A stretch of 6,898 nt of DNA from Candidatus Pacearchaeota archaeon. Lineage in GTDB: Archaea > Nanoarchaeota > Nanoarchaeia > Pacearchaeales > GW2011-AR1. The notes below the pieces were generated by a model. The model saw only the letters and a list, made by a program, of their open reading frames with translations, was not told the DNA's origin and did not search any database. The stretch is from the NCBI GenBank assembly GCA_002690445.1, contig NZER01000137.1:1-6898 (forward strand), written 5' to 3'. Of this stretch, positions 2,661 through 6,898 are shown piece by piece. Position 1 is the stretch's first letter. Each line of letters opens with the position of its first letter. The translations under genes and the position numbers were made by a program.

Positions 2661-5600
2661 TTATTCACCCAAACTTGATGTAAACAAGATTGTAATATTC
2701 CTGTCTCCCGGACCCTCACTCTGAGGCGTATCTATAAAGATATCAATCTCAGCTGAGTCAGTAGCATCAGTATAATTTAATTCTGCAAGACTAACAAAAA
2801 GACTGCCTGTAATCGGCACCGGATTCCAAGTTGTATTTGATATACCCCAATTAAACGAAGCATTTTCCCCGCTCTTATTATCTACCTTAAACCTATAATA
2901 ATCACTCGTGCTTCCCTGACTACTCCACAACGCAGTAGAATTAACACTCACATTCACAAAAACAGTCCCATCATTCTGAATTACAAACGGCGGCGGCAAA
3001 TCATCAGTTGTATCATTTGACTCCAGCGGATTTATTGTCCCAAAATTAACTTCATAAACAGGCAAACTCACAACAAGCGAAGCCGAAATATTCACAGTCC
3101 AATTAGCAGACCACGAACCATTAATAAACCCATCATCAGCTCGCACAGTCCAATTATAATAATTACCAGCCCCATTATCTATCAAACACTGCAGATCAGC
3201 TGACGGAATATAAAATGAATCTGATTGCCCAACATCATACCGCTCATCAGAAGCACAAGCTAAACTTGAAATATTAATTTCATAAGTCATACTATCACTA
3301 TCAGCATCAGTTGCAGTCCAGTCAAACAACGGAGTCCTATTAGTAGTCTGGCTCCCGCTCGCCGGCTCAACAAGACTAATCACAGGTGGACTATTCAAAA
3401 TCGTCAGCGTAGTTGAATTATCAGACAAAGTATACTCAATCCCATCATACACTCTCATTGTACAATTCCACAAATCCCCTTTTGTCGTGTTTGTCGATTC
3501 CAAAGTCGCAATAAACAGCGTATTATTTGCATAACTTTCATTATAATCCACAGTTAAATCCAGAACAGAGTCATTATACCAATAAACAGTCACATTCAAA
3601 TCCTCATTATCAAGATCGCCAATTGTTGCAGAACAATACAAATCCTCATCAGTATAATTTGTATCTTCTGAACTATTAATTGAAACTTCTGGAGAAAGCG
3701 GCGCTGCATTAATTGTTATTGCTCTAACATCTGTCTGATTCCAACTCCCCGCATCATCTTTTGCAAATGCTTGATAAGTATAATCCTTCCCTGCATCCAA
3801 CCCCACATTCGGACTTTTTGACTGGTTCACATACAAATGCCAATCAGTCACATTATACTTCTTCAGATTCGCCATGTAACTCGCATTTATCTCTGCTGCT
3901 GTCAAGCTTCTGTTCCATATGCGGACTTCGTCTATTGTGCCGTTGAGAGGATAATTCCCGCCTCCTGGTTTTCCTAAATATAAAGATAAACTGAAATTTA
4001 AATTAGTTAAATTAGTTGAAGTAGAATCTACTAATATCCCATTTTCATAAAATTTCATACTTATATTAGTCACATCAGTACTATCTCTTTCCCAAGTTCC
4101 AACTAAATGATTCCAATTACCTTCAAATTGACTCTCACTTGCTGTTCCTTCAATAGTTACCTGATCACTGCCATTTCCTATCTTGAAATATGGCCTTGAA
4201 TATGATTCATAAATCCACATACCTTTTGCTGAGGATTCCCAATACGCGCCTGTATTATGCAAATTTAAGTAGACATCGGATATCGCAGTGCCAAATTCTG
4301 AACCTTTTGTCCAATTATTAGAATTTAGCCACAAAGCAAATGTTCCTGATTCATTTAAGTTGACCGAACTTATAGTAGAAGTTGAAATATCATCATTAAT
4401 TCCATCAAAACTATAACAATACCCATATTTACATCCCCCACTGCTTGTATTAACTCTTGCACCAGTCACAGTCCCATTATTGCTATTTCCACTCCAAACT
4501 GCCAACCCACCCCCTCCGCCCCGCCTCACCAACACAACATCATTTTCTACATCAACATCATAAATCTTACCTGAATACGGAACTTTCTCAATACTCTTAA
4601 CTCTAACAAGCTTATCCTCTGAATCCAAAAACCAGATTTCCTCACCTTTTTCAAAAGAAGAATAAACATTTGTAATCTTTTGTAAACCAAAAGATTTATA
4701 AATATCAACATATTTATGTTTACTAACATAATCAACAGGAGTTAAAATGGCAACTGTAACATTATCAATTCCAGAGGAATTAAAATCTAAAATGGATAAA
4801 CATCCAAGAATTAAATGGTCTGAAATATTTAGAAGAATGATAGATTCTAAAATAGAACAATTAAAAAGATTAGAAGGAGATAAACTATAAATGCCATCTG
4901 TTACTTTTGCAGTCTCTGAAAAACTTAAATCTGAAATGAAAGAATTTGCTTGGGTAAACTGGTCAGAACTTGCAAAACAAGAAGTACTTAGACAAGATGA
5001 AAGAGCAAAATTATTTGAAGAACTTGAAGAATTAACAAAAGATAGCAAATTAACAGACAAGGATTGTCTAAAATTTGCTAAACTTGTCAAAGAAAGATTT
5101 GCAAAGAATTCAGGAGAACAATAAATGAGATTAGTAACTGATGCTAACATAGCATTTTCATTATTAAAAAAAGGATCATTTACAAGAAGATTAGCACACA
5201 AATATTCATTAGATTTATATTCACATAGATTTATCTTAGAAGAATTAGAAGAACATTCTGATGAACTTTGCGAATTACTCCAAATTTCTGAAGACAAATT
5301 TGAAAGAATAAAAGAAATATTATCAAAATTAATCAACTTAAAAATTAAAGTCTCTCCACAACAATTAAATTGGGCTAGCTCATTAATATCAGATCCTGAT
5401 GATTCTTCATATCTTGCATTAGCACTTAAACTAAACTTTCCTATTTGGTCAGAAGATCTACATTTTAAAGAACAATCAGTTGTAGAAGTATTCACAACTA
5501 AAGAACTTAAAGAATTTCTTGAAGATGAATAAACTCTATGCTTCTCACTAACAACTATCTCACTCTCGATTCCACCTTCATCAACTATCTCAATCCTGTA

Positions 5601-6898
5601 CATCTCACCCCCTAACTTATTGTTATCAAACACCTGCCACTCACTAGGCAACTGCCATTCCATCTCTCCACTTTCTTGATTCAATGTAGCAACCTTCTCT
5701 GTCCTATCAAGCTCACTAAACAACTTCCACCCACTACCTGTCAAAATCTCAGTCTCATTATCATAACAATACCCACTCAAATCTAAAACCCGCGTGTCAT
5801 TCTCCCCCAAATCAGTCACATTATCAAAATTAAACATCAACACAAGAGAATCATTAAACAAAGTATAATTTGTCCCATTCCAATTCCACATAACTTCATC
5901 TAAATTACTTTCAACAATCGAAACATTAAACTCCTGGCTAACATTTGTCGTATTAGTCCCATTAACCGGCGTAGGAGTCACATAATCTATCAAAGGAAAA
6001 CTCGCATCAACACTTACAGACCTAACATTTGTAAAATTCACATTCCCAGCATTATCCACAGCCCATCCCTTGAATGTATGATCCCCATCAGCCAAAGAAG
6101 TGAAATTATTCTGATATTGCGTCGCACTTGCATTGTATAATGCTAAAATTTCCGTATCATTTAAACTTCTGTTAAAGATTAAGACTTCGTCAATTACCCC
6201 ATCAAAACTTTGTGCACTAGTCCCCCACCTTCCTATTTCGATAGTCCCCGTTGAATTAGAATTGTCACTTAGCACCCCATAGAAATGAGTGTTACCTACT
6301 TCCCCATCACCATCTATAAACAAGGAGGCAGATGTGCCGTTAAACCTCCCACAAGCAAAATGCCATTCGTTCACAGCAAACGTATATCCAGGTGGATCAA
6401 TCTCATGCCAATCTTGAGTAGTATTATATACCAAAAACTTGATATTATTTAACCACCCATTCTGTAAAAGAGCAGTTATTGAAGTGTTTTCATCAGGGAT
6501 TCCTATAATCATCTCATTCTCAGTTACACTGTCTAAATTATACATCCAAGCACAGATTGTGAAATTTAAATTTGTAAAATTAAAGTTTTGTGAAGCAGCT
6601 ATTTCAATATAATCCCCACTCCCATCAAACTCCCACCCCTTCCCAAACCGCCCCGAATCAGTCTGATTTGCATTACCATAAGTTGTCCCATAATTATTAT
6701 AACTCGAATTATCCATCACCTCCCCGCTCCCATTCTGCTCATCCATCCGCCACCACCCCACCAAAGACTTATCAAAATCTAAAAATGCATAATGGTCATT
6801 TGTATCGTTAGATGTCATATTCACATAAATATCAGTATTTGCCTGACTCGATGCATTAGCCGGAGTCAAAGTTGTAAAATTAACAAAAGGCAGCAAAG
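2661..6898 (-). CDS. Giant LamG/Ig-like secreted surface protein, intein-interrupted, 5' partial
   Basis: At least 1411 codons are visible and the frame is still open at the right edge; the first codon there is TTG in mid-linker, so the true start lies outside. Residues are counted from 6896. A first LamG (concanavalin-like) domain spans about 43-255 (SLVGWWRMDE, WEFDGSGDYIEI, GVIDEVLIFNRSL). A linker with DGDHTFKGWAVDNAGN follows (about 262-300). A second LamG runs from about 350, is broken by an intein at 377-804, and continues to about 1007 (YSFDGINDDIS, GTIDEVRIWNRSL). After it come Ig/PKD-like repeats (about 1012-1062, 1063-1168, 1169-1272) and a C-terminal beta domain (1274-1411). N-x-S/T sequons are very dense, suggesting N-glycosylation. 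There is no C-terminal membrane helix. Likely role: carbohydrate binding or cell-surface adhesion (family-based inference). Residues 457-721 are antisense to the toxin-antitoxin genes. Confidence 0.88.
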   Translation of the reverse strand, partial: LLPFVNFTTLTPANASSQANTDIYVNMTSNDTNDHYAFLDFDKSLVGWWRMDEQNGSGEVMDNSSYNNYGTTYGNANQTDSGRFGKGWEFDGSGDYIEIAASQNFNFTNLNFTICAWMYNLDSVTENEMIIGIPDENTSITALLQNGWLNNIKFLVYNTTQDWHEIDPPGYTFAVNEWHFACGRFNGTSASLFIDGDGEVGNTHFYGVLSDNSNSTGTIEIGRWGTSAQSFDGVIDEVLIFNRSLNDTEILALYNASATQYQNNFTSLADGDHTFKGWAVDNAGNVNFTNVRSVSVDASFPLIDYVTPTPVNGTNTTNVSQEFNVSIVESNLDEVMWNWNGTNYTLFNDSLVLMFNFDNVTDLGENDTRVLDLSGYCYDNETEILTGSGWKLFSELDRTEKVATLNQESGEMEWQLPSEWQVFDNNKLGGEMYRIEIVDEGGIESEIVVSEKHRVYSSSRNSLSSLVVNTSTTDCSLKCRSSDQIGKFSLSANARYEESSGSDINELAQFNCCGETLIFKLINFDNISFILSNLSSEIWSNSQSSSECSSNSSKINLCEYKSNEYLCANLLVNDPFFNNENAMLASVTNLIYCSPEFFANLSLTSLANFRQSLSVNLLSFVNSSSSSNNFALSSCLSTSCFASSDQFTQANSFISDLSFSETAKVTDGIYSLSPSNLFNCSILESIILLNISDHLILGCLSILDFNSSGIDNVTVAILTPVDYVSKHKYVDIYKSFGLQKITNVYSSFEKGEEIWFLDSEDKLVRVKSIEKVPYSGKIYDVDVENDVVLVRRGGGGGLAVWSGNSNNGTVTGARVNTSSGGCKYGYCYSFDGINDDISTSTISSVNLNESGTFALWLNSNNWTKGSEFGTAISDVYLNLHNTGAYWESSAKGMWIYESYSRPYFKIGNGSDQVTIEGTASESQFEGNWNHLVGTWERDSTDVTNISMKFYENGILVDSTSTNLTNLNFSLSLYLGKPGGGNYPLNGTIDEVRIWNRSLTAAEINASYMANLKKYNVTDWHLYVNQSKSPNVGLDAGKDYTYQAFAKDDAGSWNQTDVRAITINAAPLSPEVSINSSEDTNYTDEDLYCSATIGDLDNEDLNVTVYWYNDSVLDLTVDYNESYANNTLFIATLESTNTTKGDLWNCTMRVYDGIEYTLSDNSTTLTILNSPPVISLVEPASGSQTTNRTPLFDWTATDADSDSMTYEINISSLACASDERYDVGQSDSFYIPSADLQCLIDNGAGNYYNWTVRADDGFINGSWSANWTVNISASLVVSLPVYEVNFGTINPLESNDTTDDLPPPFVIQNDGTVFVNVSVNSTALWSSQGSTSDYYRFKVDNKSGENASFNWGISNTTWNPVPITGSLFVSLAELNYTDATDSAEIDIFIDTPQSEGPGDRNITILFTSSLGE
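4695..4703 (+). promoter_or_regulatory. TATA box of the antisense toxin-antitoxin operon
   Basis: TTTATAAAT lies about 44-52 nt before the first antitoxin ATG (4747), with purine-rich AAAAGA just upstream as a possible BRE. A start site some 25 nt downstream would leave a leader of about 20 nt containing the ribosome binding site. The same bases encode intein residues DIYKSF on the other strand, so promoter and Hint coding overlap. Confidence 0.5.
4713..4727. repeat. Left copy of imperfect direct repeat flanking the cassette
   Basis: TTTATGTTTACTAAC matches TCTATGCTTCTCACTAAC at 5535-5552 in 13 of 15 bases, apart from one 3-base insertion. On the minus strand both copies encode the intein motif S-K-H-K or S-E-K-H-R. 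It ends 19 nt before the first antitoxin gene and marks the left edge of the inserted cassette. Confidence 0.55.
4737..4741 (+). promoter_or_regulatory. Ribosome binding site of the first antitoxin gene
   Basis: AGGAG is five bases before ATG 4747 and fixes the start of a 47-codon gene that would otherwise be easy to miss. The next two genes carry equivalent sites, GGAG at 4876-4879 and AGGAG at 5112-5116. Confidence 0.6.
4747..4890 (+). CDS. Ribbon-helix-helix antitoxin-like protein (first of two)
   Basis: A 47-residue protein, MATVTLSIPEELKSKMDKHP followed by RIKWSEIFRRMIDSKIEQLK and a short charged tail. The beta strand (TVTLSIP), first helix (EELKSKMDK) and WSEIFRRMID helix follow the N-terminal pattern of archaeal VapB-type ribbon-helix-helix antitoxins. 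Such proteins dimerise, bind the operon's operator and use a C-terminal extension to block a partner nuclease. Here that extension is almost absent, so this protein may serve mainly as a DNA-binding repressor, or be a shortened antitoxin. Its TAA stop abuts the ATG of the next gene, all three cassette genes share one frame, and AGGAG precedes it. Codons are strongly A-ending, unlike the surrounding host gene. It lies antisense within the intein. Confidence 0.78.
   Translation: MATVTLSIPEELKSKMDKHPRIKWSEIFRRMIDSKIEQLKRLEGDKL
4891..5124 (+). CDS. vapB: VapB-like ribbon-helix-helix antitoxin (second of two)
   Basis: A 77-residue protein that begins MPSVTFAVSEKLKSEMKEFA and continues WVNWSELAKQEVLRQDERAK. 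It matches the first antitoxin at the start (VT, LKS, M, WSE), so the pair probably arose by duplication or by joining related modules. Residues about 1-40 form the ribbon-helix-helix; about 41-77 form a long charged helical tail (LFEELEELTKDSKLTDKD onward), the part that in VapB proteins wraps the PIN toxin and covers its active site. A GGAG site ends 11 nt before the ATG. The stop codon abuts the toxin ATG, the usual antitoxin-first order with tight coupling. By family knowledge it should neutralise the PIN protein and, with it, repress the operon. The symbol is by family likeness only. Confidence 0.83.
   Translation: MPSVTFAVSEKLKSEMKEFAWVNWSELAKQEVLRQDERAKLFEELEELTKDSKLTDKDCLKFAKLVKERFAKNSGEQ
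5125..5532 (+). CDS. vapC: PIN-domain ribonuclease toxin, VapC-like
   Basis: A 135-residue protein of full PIN-domain length. It opens MRLVTDANIAFSLL, giving the first catalytic Asp (D6) and its Asn partner. FILEELEEH supplies the conserved Glu (E39/E40), DPDDSSYLALAL (90-101) the third acidic cluster and WSEDLHF (108-114) the fourth acid (D111). The C-terminus, VVEVFTTKELKEFL, is the typical last strand and helix. All expected metal-binding acids are present, so the nuclease looks intact. PIN toxins of this kind cut RNA, usually tRNA or rRNA, when not held by antitoxin; the target here is unknown. An AGGAG site is eight bases before the ATG. The stop codon at 5530-5532 is two bases from the right flanking repeat. 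The gene is very AT-rich with A-ending codons and lies antisense to an intein in the host gene. Confidence 0.87.
   Translation: MRLVTDANIAFSLLKKGSFTRRLAHKYSLDLYSHRFILEELEEHSDELCELLQISEDKFERIKEILSKLINLKIKVSPQQLNWASSLISDPDDSSYLALALKLNFPIWSEDLHFKEQSVVEVFTTKELKEFLEDE
5535..5552. repeat. Right copy of imperfect direct repeat flanking the cassette
   Basis: TCTATGCTTCTCACTAAC begins two bases after the toxin stop codon. On the minus strand it encodes intein block B (V-S-E-K-H-R), including the catalytic His. The left partner is at 4713-4727. The distance between equivalent ends is 822 or 825 bp, a multiple of three either way, so loss of one copy plus the cassette keeps the host frame. Confidence 0.55.

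Follow-up and report, generated by a model that had tools for sequence, protein, structure and literature searches.

Introduction

Homing inteins such as TliVMA and PI-SceI carry a LAGLIDADG endonuclease nested in sense and in frame, while mini-inteins consist of the Hint domain only and have no homing domain. Inteins that are free of an endonuclease are usually regarded as heading for loss. VapBC toxin-antitoxin (TA) systems of type II are built on another plan, with one or more ribbon-helix-helix (RHH) genes followed by a gene for a PIN toxin with four invariant acids. Here we describe an archaeal surface-protein gene that contains an intein and, inside it, an operon of the VapBC kind. Unlike homing inteins, this one harbours an antisense TA operon with a promoter-like box of its own. 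Like a mini-intein it has the Hint domain and no homing domain, and it would presumably splice as one; the difference is that in these archaea TA or tRNA genes have moved into the gap. The operon resembles VapBC in its acids, the VapC-like model of its PIN protein and, if the two upstream genes are RHH genes, its gene order, and departs from it in having two RHH genes, in belonging to the PIN_2 subfamily and in being embedded antisense in a gene that needs an open frame. In relatives, RelBE-like and DUF433-DUF5615 operons are also found in the same gap or in other intein loops.

No description of TA genes inside inteins was found in the literature searched, which extended to papers other than preprints and most subscription articles, in keeping with the preliminary description of this DNA, whose author knew of none; passages of PMC8966425, PMC4853749, PMC8987985 and PMC9957025 describe none either. 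To our knowledge the parts are familiar and the arrangement is new, a statement that concerns the arrangement and leaves aside the addiction step discussed below. We lean slightly towards the reading that the endonuclease-free intein is a docking site for an antisense VapBC-like operon with its own promoter, that the insertion is spliced out of the protein, and that the TA genes may help the intein to persist.

The intein and its operon

The window (the whole stretch of 6,898 nucleotides that was analysed) contains the following features:

2661..6896, minus strand: open reading frame of a LamG-type surface protein, the intein host; 1411 aa, 5' end open; Laminin_G_3 match 2.5e-34
4485..5768, minus strand: intein of 428 aa, from Cys1 to the terminal Asn; extein +1 residue Ser (4482-4484); Hint fold predicted by AlphaFold
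5529..5768, minus strand: N-terminal half of the Hint domain, with block A (Cys1) and block B (S-x-x-H; His at 5538-5540)
4485..4706, minus strand: C-terminal half of the Hint domain, blocks F and G (GKIYDVDV ... VWSGN); HMM match 4521-4706
4689..4702, plus strand: predicted BRE/TATA-like promoter, AAAAGA followed by TTTATAAA, at -52 from the ATG; octamer at 4695-4702
4737..4741, plus strand: Shine-Dalgarno-like AGGAG ahead of RHH1, read from the sequence
4747..4890, plus strand: RHH1, VapB-like antitoxin, 47 aa; VapB_Sulfo 5e-9, below the curated cutoff
4891..5124, plus strand: RHH2, VapB-like antitoxin, 77 aa; VapB_Sulfo 4e-4, below the curated cutoff
5125..5532, plus strand: PIN toxin (PIN_2, VapC-like), 135 aa; PIN_2 3.9e-17; acids D6, E40, D93 and D111

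The intein begins with the nucleophile Cys1 (5766-5768) and ends in VWSGN, that is, with the terminal Asn, followed by the extein +1 Ser. The relatives compared at the intein ends were chosen by a pattern requiring Cys1 and GN followed by S, C or T, so their agreement at Cys1 is no evidence. A penultimate His is typical of inteins and variants are known; here the residue is Gly. The Pfam family Intein_splicing scores the intein at 17.2 bits, under its curated cutoff of 35.8, and the best of the relatives tested, G038, at 31.9 bits. AlphaFold predicts that the two halves combine into one Hint fold and that residues 86-358 between them are disordered, and the sense frame on the minus strand is open from end to end. 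Joining the LamG flanks raises the Pfam LamG score to 65.2 bits, against 63.3 for the C-terminal flank alone, which says little because the intein lies at the N-terminal edge of the Pfam domain.

The preliminary description had placed an antisense TA operon between block B and the C-terminal half of a complete Hint domain, in the seat of the endonuclease, and profile matches and the predicted Hint fold bear this out. The intein has no LAGLIDADG or HNH match at E<=1. LAGLIDADG endonucleases occupy that very spot in related inteins, with LAGLIDADG_3 confirmed in all four that were tested (L076, L080, L145 and L148), none of which matches any of six TA profiles.

The three genes of the operon share one frame, each stop adjoining the next start. 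The PIN gene, described from the outset as having all its acids, keeps D6, E40, D93 and D111 invariant across 41 homologues; we take these to be the catalytic acids. Its predicted structure has a mean pLDDT of 91.7, and the best Foldseek match of the model is VapC of Rickettsia felis VapBC2 (E 4.9e-4). No PIN protein turned up when PDB sequences were searched with the PIN profile, and scans of IMG/VR found no relatives. As for the two putative antitoxins, two small genes do lie directly upstream of PIN, while their assignment to the RHH class comes from VapB_Sulfo matches below cutoff and a Pfam RHH_1 match of only 0.12.

Translated from the minus strand, the TATA-like box reads IYKSF, a type of peptide that recurs before the C-terminal Hint half in several relatives. 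An octamer of this kind, scanned with a pattern picked after the sequences had been viewed, lies at -30 to -58 from the first gene in 20 of 20 embedded operons of the 42-gene, 15-intein set described below (for one G065 operon the ATG used is downstream of the first possible start), as compared with a mean of 2.7 and a maximum of 8 in shuffles.

Elsewhere in the window, positions 286-384 hold two imperfect copies of CTCTTGACA...CAAGAGTGAAT, each apparently capable of forming a hairpin as judged by eye. A gene for a small winged-helix protein lies at 2393-2719 on the minus strand (HTH_24 9.8e-4 and Lrs14-like 0.0046, both below cutoff) and includes a 12-nt tandem repeat within 2584-2631.

Recurrence in related archaea

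Run over genome contigs, the PIN profile found one close relative, L001 (archaeon CSMAG_1761, 84% identity), and three distant ones. The LamG frame of L001 exceeds 3200 aa and has two inteins, one with antisense RHH-RHH-PIN genes like those of the window and the other with antisense RHH-PIN genes plus a RelBE-like pair. A search with the intein sequence, in which the best 7978 candidates were scored, found at least 67 proteins, and for at least 16 the alignment spans 97-100% of the intein with the antisense part included. The names of the sources (Nanoarchaeota, Woesearchaeota, Pacearchaeota, "archaeon") suggest that the carriers are DPANN archaea.

The preliminary description had proposed searching genomes for Hint halves split by antisense TA genes, and had named as the contrary case homologues whose middle region is a true sense-strand domain and which lack the plus-strand genes. 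Searches with the N-terminal Hint half in overlapping samples of 180 and 371 genomes gave 19 distinct hits when the threshold was placed, once the lists had been viewed, at E<=1e-23 (the next hit is at 6.5e-22). Antisense TA genes lie inside the intein in 17 of the 19: two each in G001, G022, G214 and G391, and one each in G016, G017, G038, G065, G114, G171 (C19), G174, G175 and G197. The sample may favour TA-bearing inteins, since its seed rows were proteins found with the window's intein. The other two strong hits are G105, which matches none of the six TA profiles and carries a tRNA gene instead, and G109, a LAGLIDADG intein in an apparent anaerobic ribonucleotide reductase. A continuous sense frame runs from Cys1 to the terminal Asn in 15 of the 17; the second intein of G391 runs off its contig and that of G171 is broken in its N-terminal half. 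Two more TA inteins came to light in G125 (on a 113-kb contig) through the PIN search rather than the Hint search, the second of them cut off at the end of the stretch examined.

Among the weaker Hint hits examined, nine loci (L076, L080, L081, L082 and L144-L148) match none of the six TA profiles, L076 being the G109 locus already counted in the 19, and antisense TA genes are present at two further hits that are weak or partial (G176 and C24 of G171). At L077 and L078, both in G171, the N-terminal half of the intein has lost its continuous frame and the TA genes are still open; these broken inteins are possibly decaying elements or assembly errors.

Cargo types and docking sites

The inteins carry three types of TA cargo: RHH-PIN, RelBE-like and DUF433-DUF5615. 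The last pair is recognised by matches of 8.2e-23 (DUF433) and 4.1e-11 (DUF5615), and we assume it to be a TA pair; the RelE-like protein matches ParE_toxin below threshold only. Up to two operons are present per intein, mostly between blocks B and F, and elsewhere between the first Hint strands (intein 1 of L001) or after block F (G174, G017 and G022). Hint domains with an empty B-F gap also exist (G174 and P0139), and the cargo has therefore been inserted after HKVY and ahead of the F-x-L-x-P-I segment. The scope is thus wider than first proposed, with three operon types, many genomes and, as described below, selection that keeps the intein frame open.

The occurrence of three unrelated operon types in the same gap bears on the objection that the middle region is a real domain of the sense strand and the plus-strand genes are spurious. 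The sense frame is indeed open throughout, but its residues 86-358 are predicted to be disordered, and the PIN gene opposite belongs to a known family, has a predicted VapC fold and is interleaved with free-standing homologues. Together with the three operon types this rules the objection out; we attach hardly any probability to it.

Without exception, the TA matches within the 17 inteins run antisense to the surface gene. This orientation, and the promoter-like box found at each of the 20 operons examined, would suit a regulatory coupling in which transcription of the surface gene antisense through the TA genes represses them, and its cessation, for example upon infection or a surface switch, releases them. 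However, a stop-free phase may simply be what the antisense orientation provides, and there are many free-standing copies that have no such frame across them, so that we consider this coupling improbable.

Insertions are also seen outside recognisable Hint domains. In G175, a surface-protein open frame with no detectable Hint holds antisense operons of the RHH-PIN and RelBE-like types (L068:3025-4370), which are flanked by repeats of the type EYxSFxDITNKV. In G067, RHH-PIN and DUF433-DUF5615 operons lie antisense to an open frame of 625 codons that has no Hint hit (L217:620-2065, contig C47). Three PIN genes stand in a row in L083 (G077:C23:1-9000), and the antisense strand of each is open for 284-412 codons, free of Hint hits. 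The 1.2-Mb genome G016 has eight matches of the DUF433 type.

Unusual genes of the tRNA-Leu(CAA) type are found in sense orientation inside inteins at L066:778-862, L068:9871-9956 (minus strand), L071:528-614, L077:480-562 and G171:C19:38958-39016. Those of L066, L068, L071 and L077 score 49-60 bits with the Rfam tRNA model, and short inverted repeats are visible by eye just outside the tRNA in L066, L071 and L077. That such a tRNA renders the intein indispensable is ruled out, since G105, G175, G022 and G171 each have another tRNA-Leu(CAA)-like gene at a different place, of more ordinary appearance, as located by a pattern scan with anticodons read by eye.

Selection on the intein frame

The sense phase is free of stops in all 42 embedded TA genes of 15 inteins (the two of G171 among them), where 20.3 are expected when synonymous codons are shuffled within each gene and 79.3 when the genes are recoded with pooled usage. 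The comparison with free-standing homologues read in the intein phase is as follows: PIN genes are stop-free in 17 of 17 embedded and 13 of 72 free-standing copies, RelE-like genes in 9/9 and 3/25, DUF433 in 8/8 and 10/18, DUF5615 in 8/8 and 8/18, and RHH in 20/20 and 45/70 (a count in which one G197 gene figures twice and the heads of two RelB genes are included), with no contrast for RelB (6/6 and 2/2); the embedded side of these comparisons includes eight gene rows from G175 and G067 whose long open frame shows no Hint, and the rows are related, which makes p values rough.

The RelE-like and DUF433 genes lie in phase 0, and the avoidance of certain codons there is the clearest trace of selection on the frame. 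Hint-frame copies of these genes differ from free-standing ones in having no TTA or CTA among 101 leucine codons, as compared with 110 of 313 (Fisher 1.4e-16), and no TCA among 56 serine codons, as compared with 35 of 180 (Fisher 5e-5). In L001 the RelB and RelE genes overlap by 4 nt, which fixes RelE in phase 0. Because stops are absent from all 42 genes and TTA, CTA and TCA from the phase-0 copies, we conclude that the intein frame is selected to stay readable, and we therefore take the surface protein to be translated through the antisense of the operon. The open antisense frame of the window alone is no proof of overprinting: it has a chance of about 0.05, and a minority of free-standing PIN genes are stop-free too. 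The codon-level adaptation to the overlap, and the same layout in many assemblies, also rule out an assembly artefact, to which we grant next to no likelihood.

Between the window and intein 2 of L001, the PIN proteins are 83.6% identical (dN 0.094, dS 0.73), RHH1 89.4% and RHH2 75.3%, and the Hint halves 56-60% (dN about 0.34), by a simple NG86 estimate that ignores the overlap of coding frames. Judged by their sequences, the TA genes appear to be under purifying selection as well, and they look intact.

Capture, turnover and persistence

Among 17 Hint domains compared, that of the window is nearest to G125's (70%), while its PIN is nearest to that of L001, whose Hint shares just 60% with the window's. 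In a tree of 89 PINs, made from few columns by a quick method, the 16 embedded ones (one of which, in L068, is outside a Hint, and with the G067 PIN in its long open frame scored as free-standing) need 15 label changes, as compared with 15.0 for shuffled labels, and starred branches force at least seven changes between the embedded and free-standing states. This scatter of embedded PINs among free-standing ones implies repeated capture. Inteins of the same genome with Hints 69-72% identical carry different families in G022 (RHH-PIN in one, DUF433 plus RelBE in the other), G214 (RelBE and RHH-PIN) and G391 (RHH-RelBE and RHH-PIN); the two inteins of G001 (Hints 66%) both carry RHH-PIN of different kinds, one of them with RelBE in addition. 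The turnover of cargo thus outpaces that of the intein, contrary to what would be expected of tight addiction. Free-standing TA genes of these families occur in this group of genomes as well, with PIN matches in 70 of 200 genomes and RelE-like matches in 70 of 180 (embedded ones counted in), hence capture may be passive.

We propose that the VapBC-like operon, lying antisense between blocks B and F, would be expressed from its own archaeal promoter, as its sequence suggests. The mRNA of the surface protein would be translated through the antisense of the operon to give a loop of about 270 residues, disordered in the model. The Hint halves would then fold together, splice, remove the loop and restore the LamG protein. 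With the loop spliced out, the insertion would be nearly free of cost to the host protein. Loss of the intein would mean loss of the labile antitoxin too, so the TA pair may penalise deletion, and such a penalty would help a non-homing intein to persist. It is plausible, as the preliminary description had supposed, that the TA genes thereby addict the host to the intein.

Repeated capture is explained equally well by a passive landing pad, where chance arrivals of TA genes survive because splicing removes the insertion and a stop-free phase can be kept, with no benefit to the intein. The at least seven forced changes in the PIN tree and its total no different from shuffled labels, the sister inteins with different TA families, the tRNA cargo and the TA insertion outside a Hint all agree with this. 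The high occupancy speaks against it, with TA genes in 17 of 19 Hints and an endonuclease (G109) or a tRNA (G105) in the other two, as do the intact look of the TA genes and the purifying selection on them. We consider a landing pad without benefit rather unlikely, though a serious contender. Occupancy and intact genes modestly favour a stabilising role of the TA genes; repeated gain and exchange of cargo, tRNA cargo and Hint-less insertions are no less consistent with a permissive docking site than with an addiction device.

Our broader proposal, put forward tentatively and at somewhat less than even chances, is that surface-protein inteins of these archaea, probably DPANN, form a distinct class of composite selfish element, in which splicing hides the insertion and interchangeable, repeatedly captured TA operons, overprinted antisense on the intein frame, replace homing by addiction as the way to persist.

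Implications

TA-carrying inteins free of an endonuclease offer a concrete and testable answer to the question of how non-homing inteins persist. If this answer is true, the element exchanges a gene-drive strategy for a hostage strategy. Entire cellular operons that are fully overprinted antisense on a translated frame are rare in nature, and these inteins provide such a case, in which codons bear evidence of selection on both strands. For the annotation of such genomes, TA genes can hide in the reading frames of surface proteins, and long sense proteins contain antisense filler.
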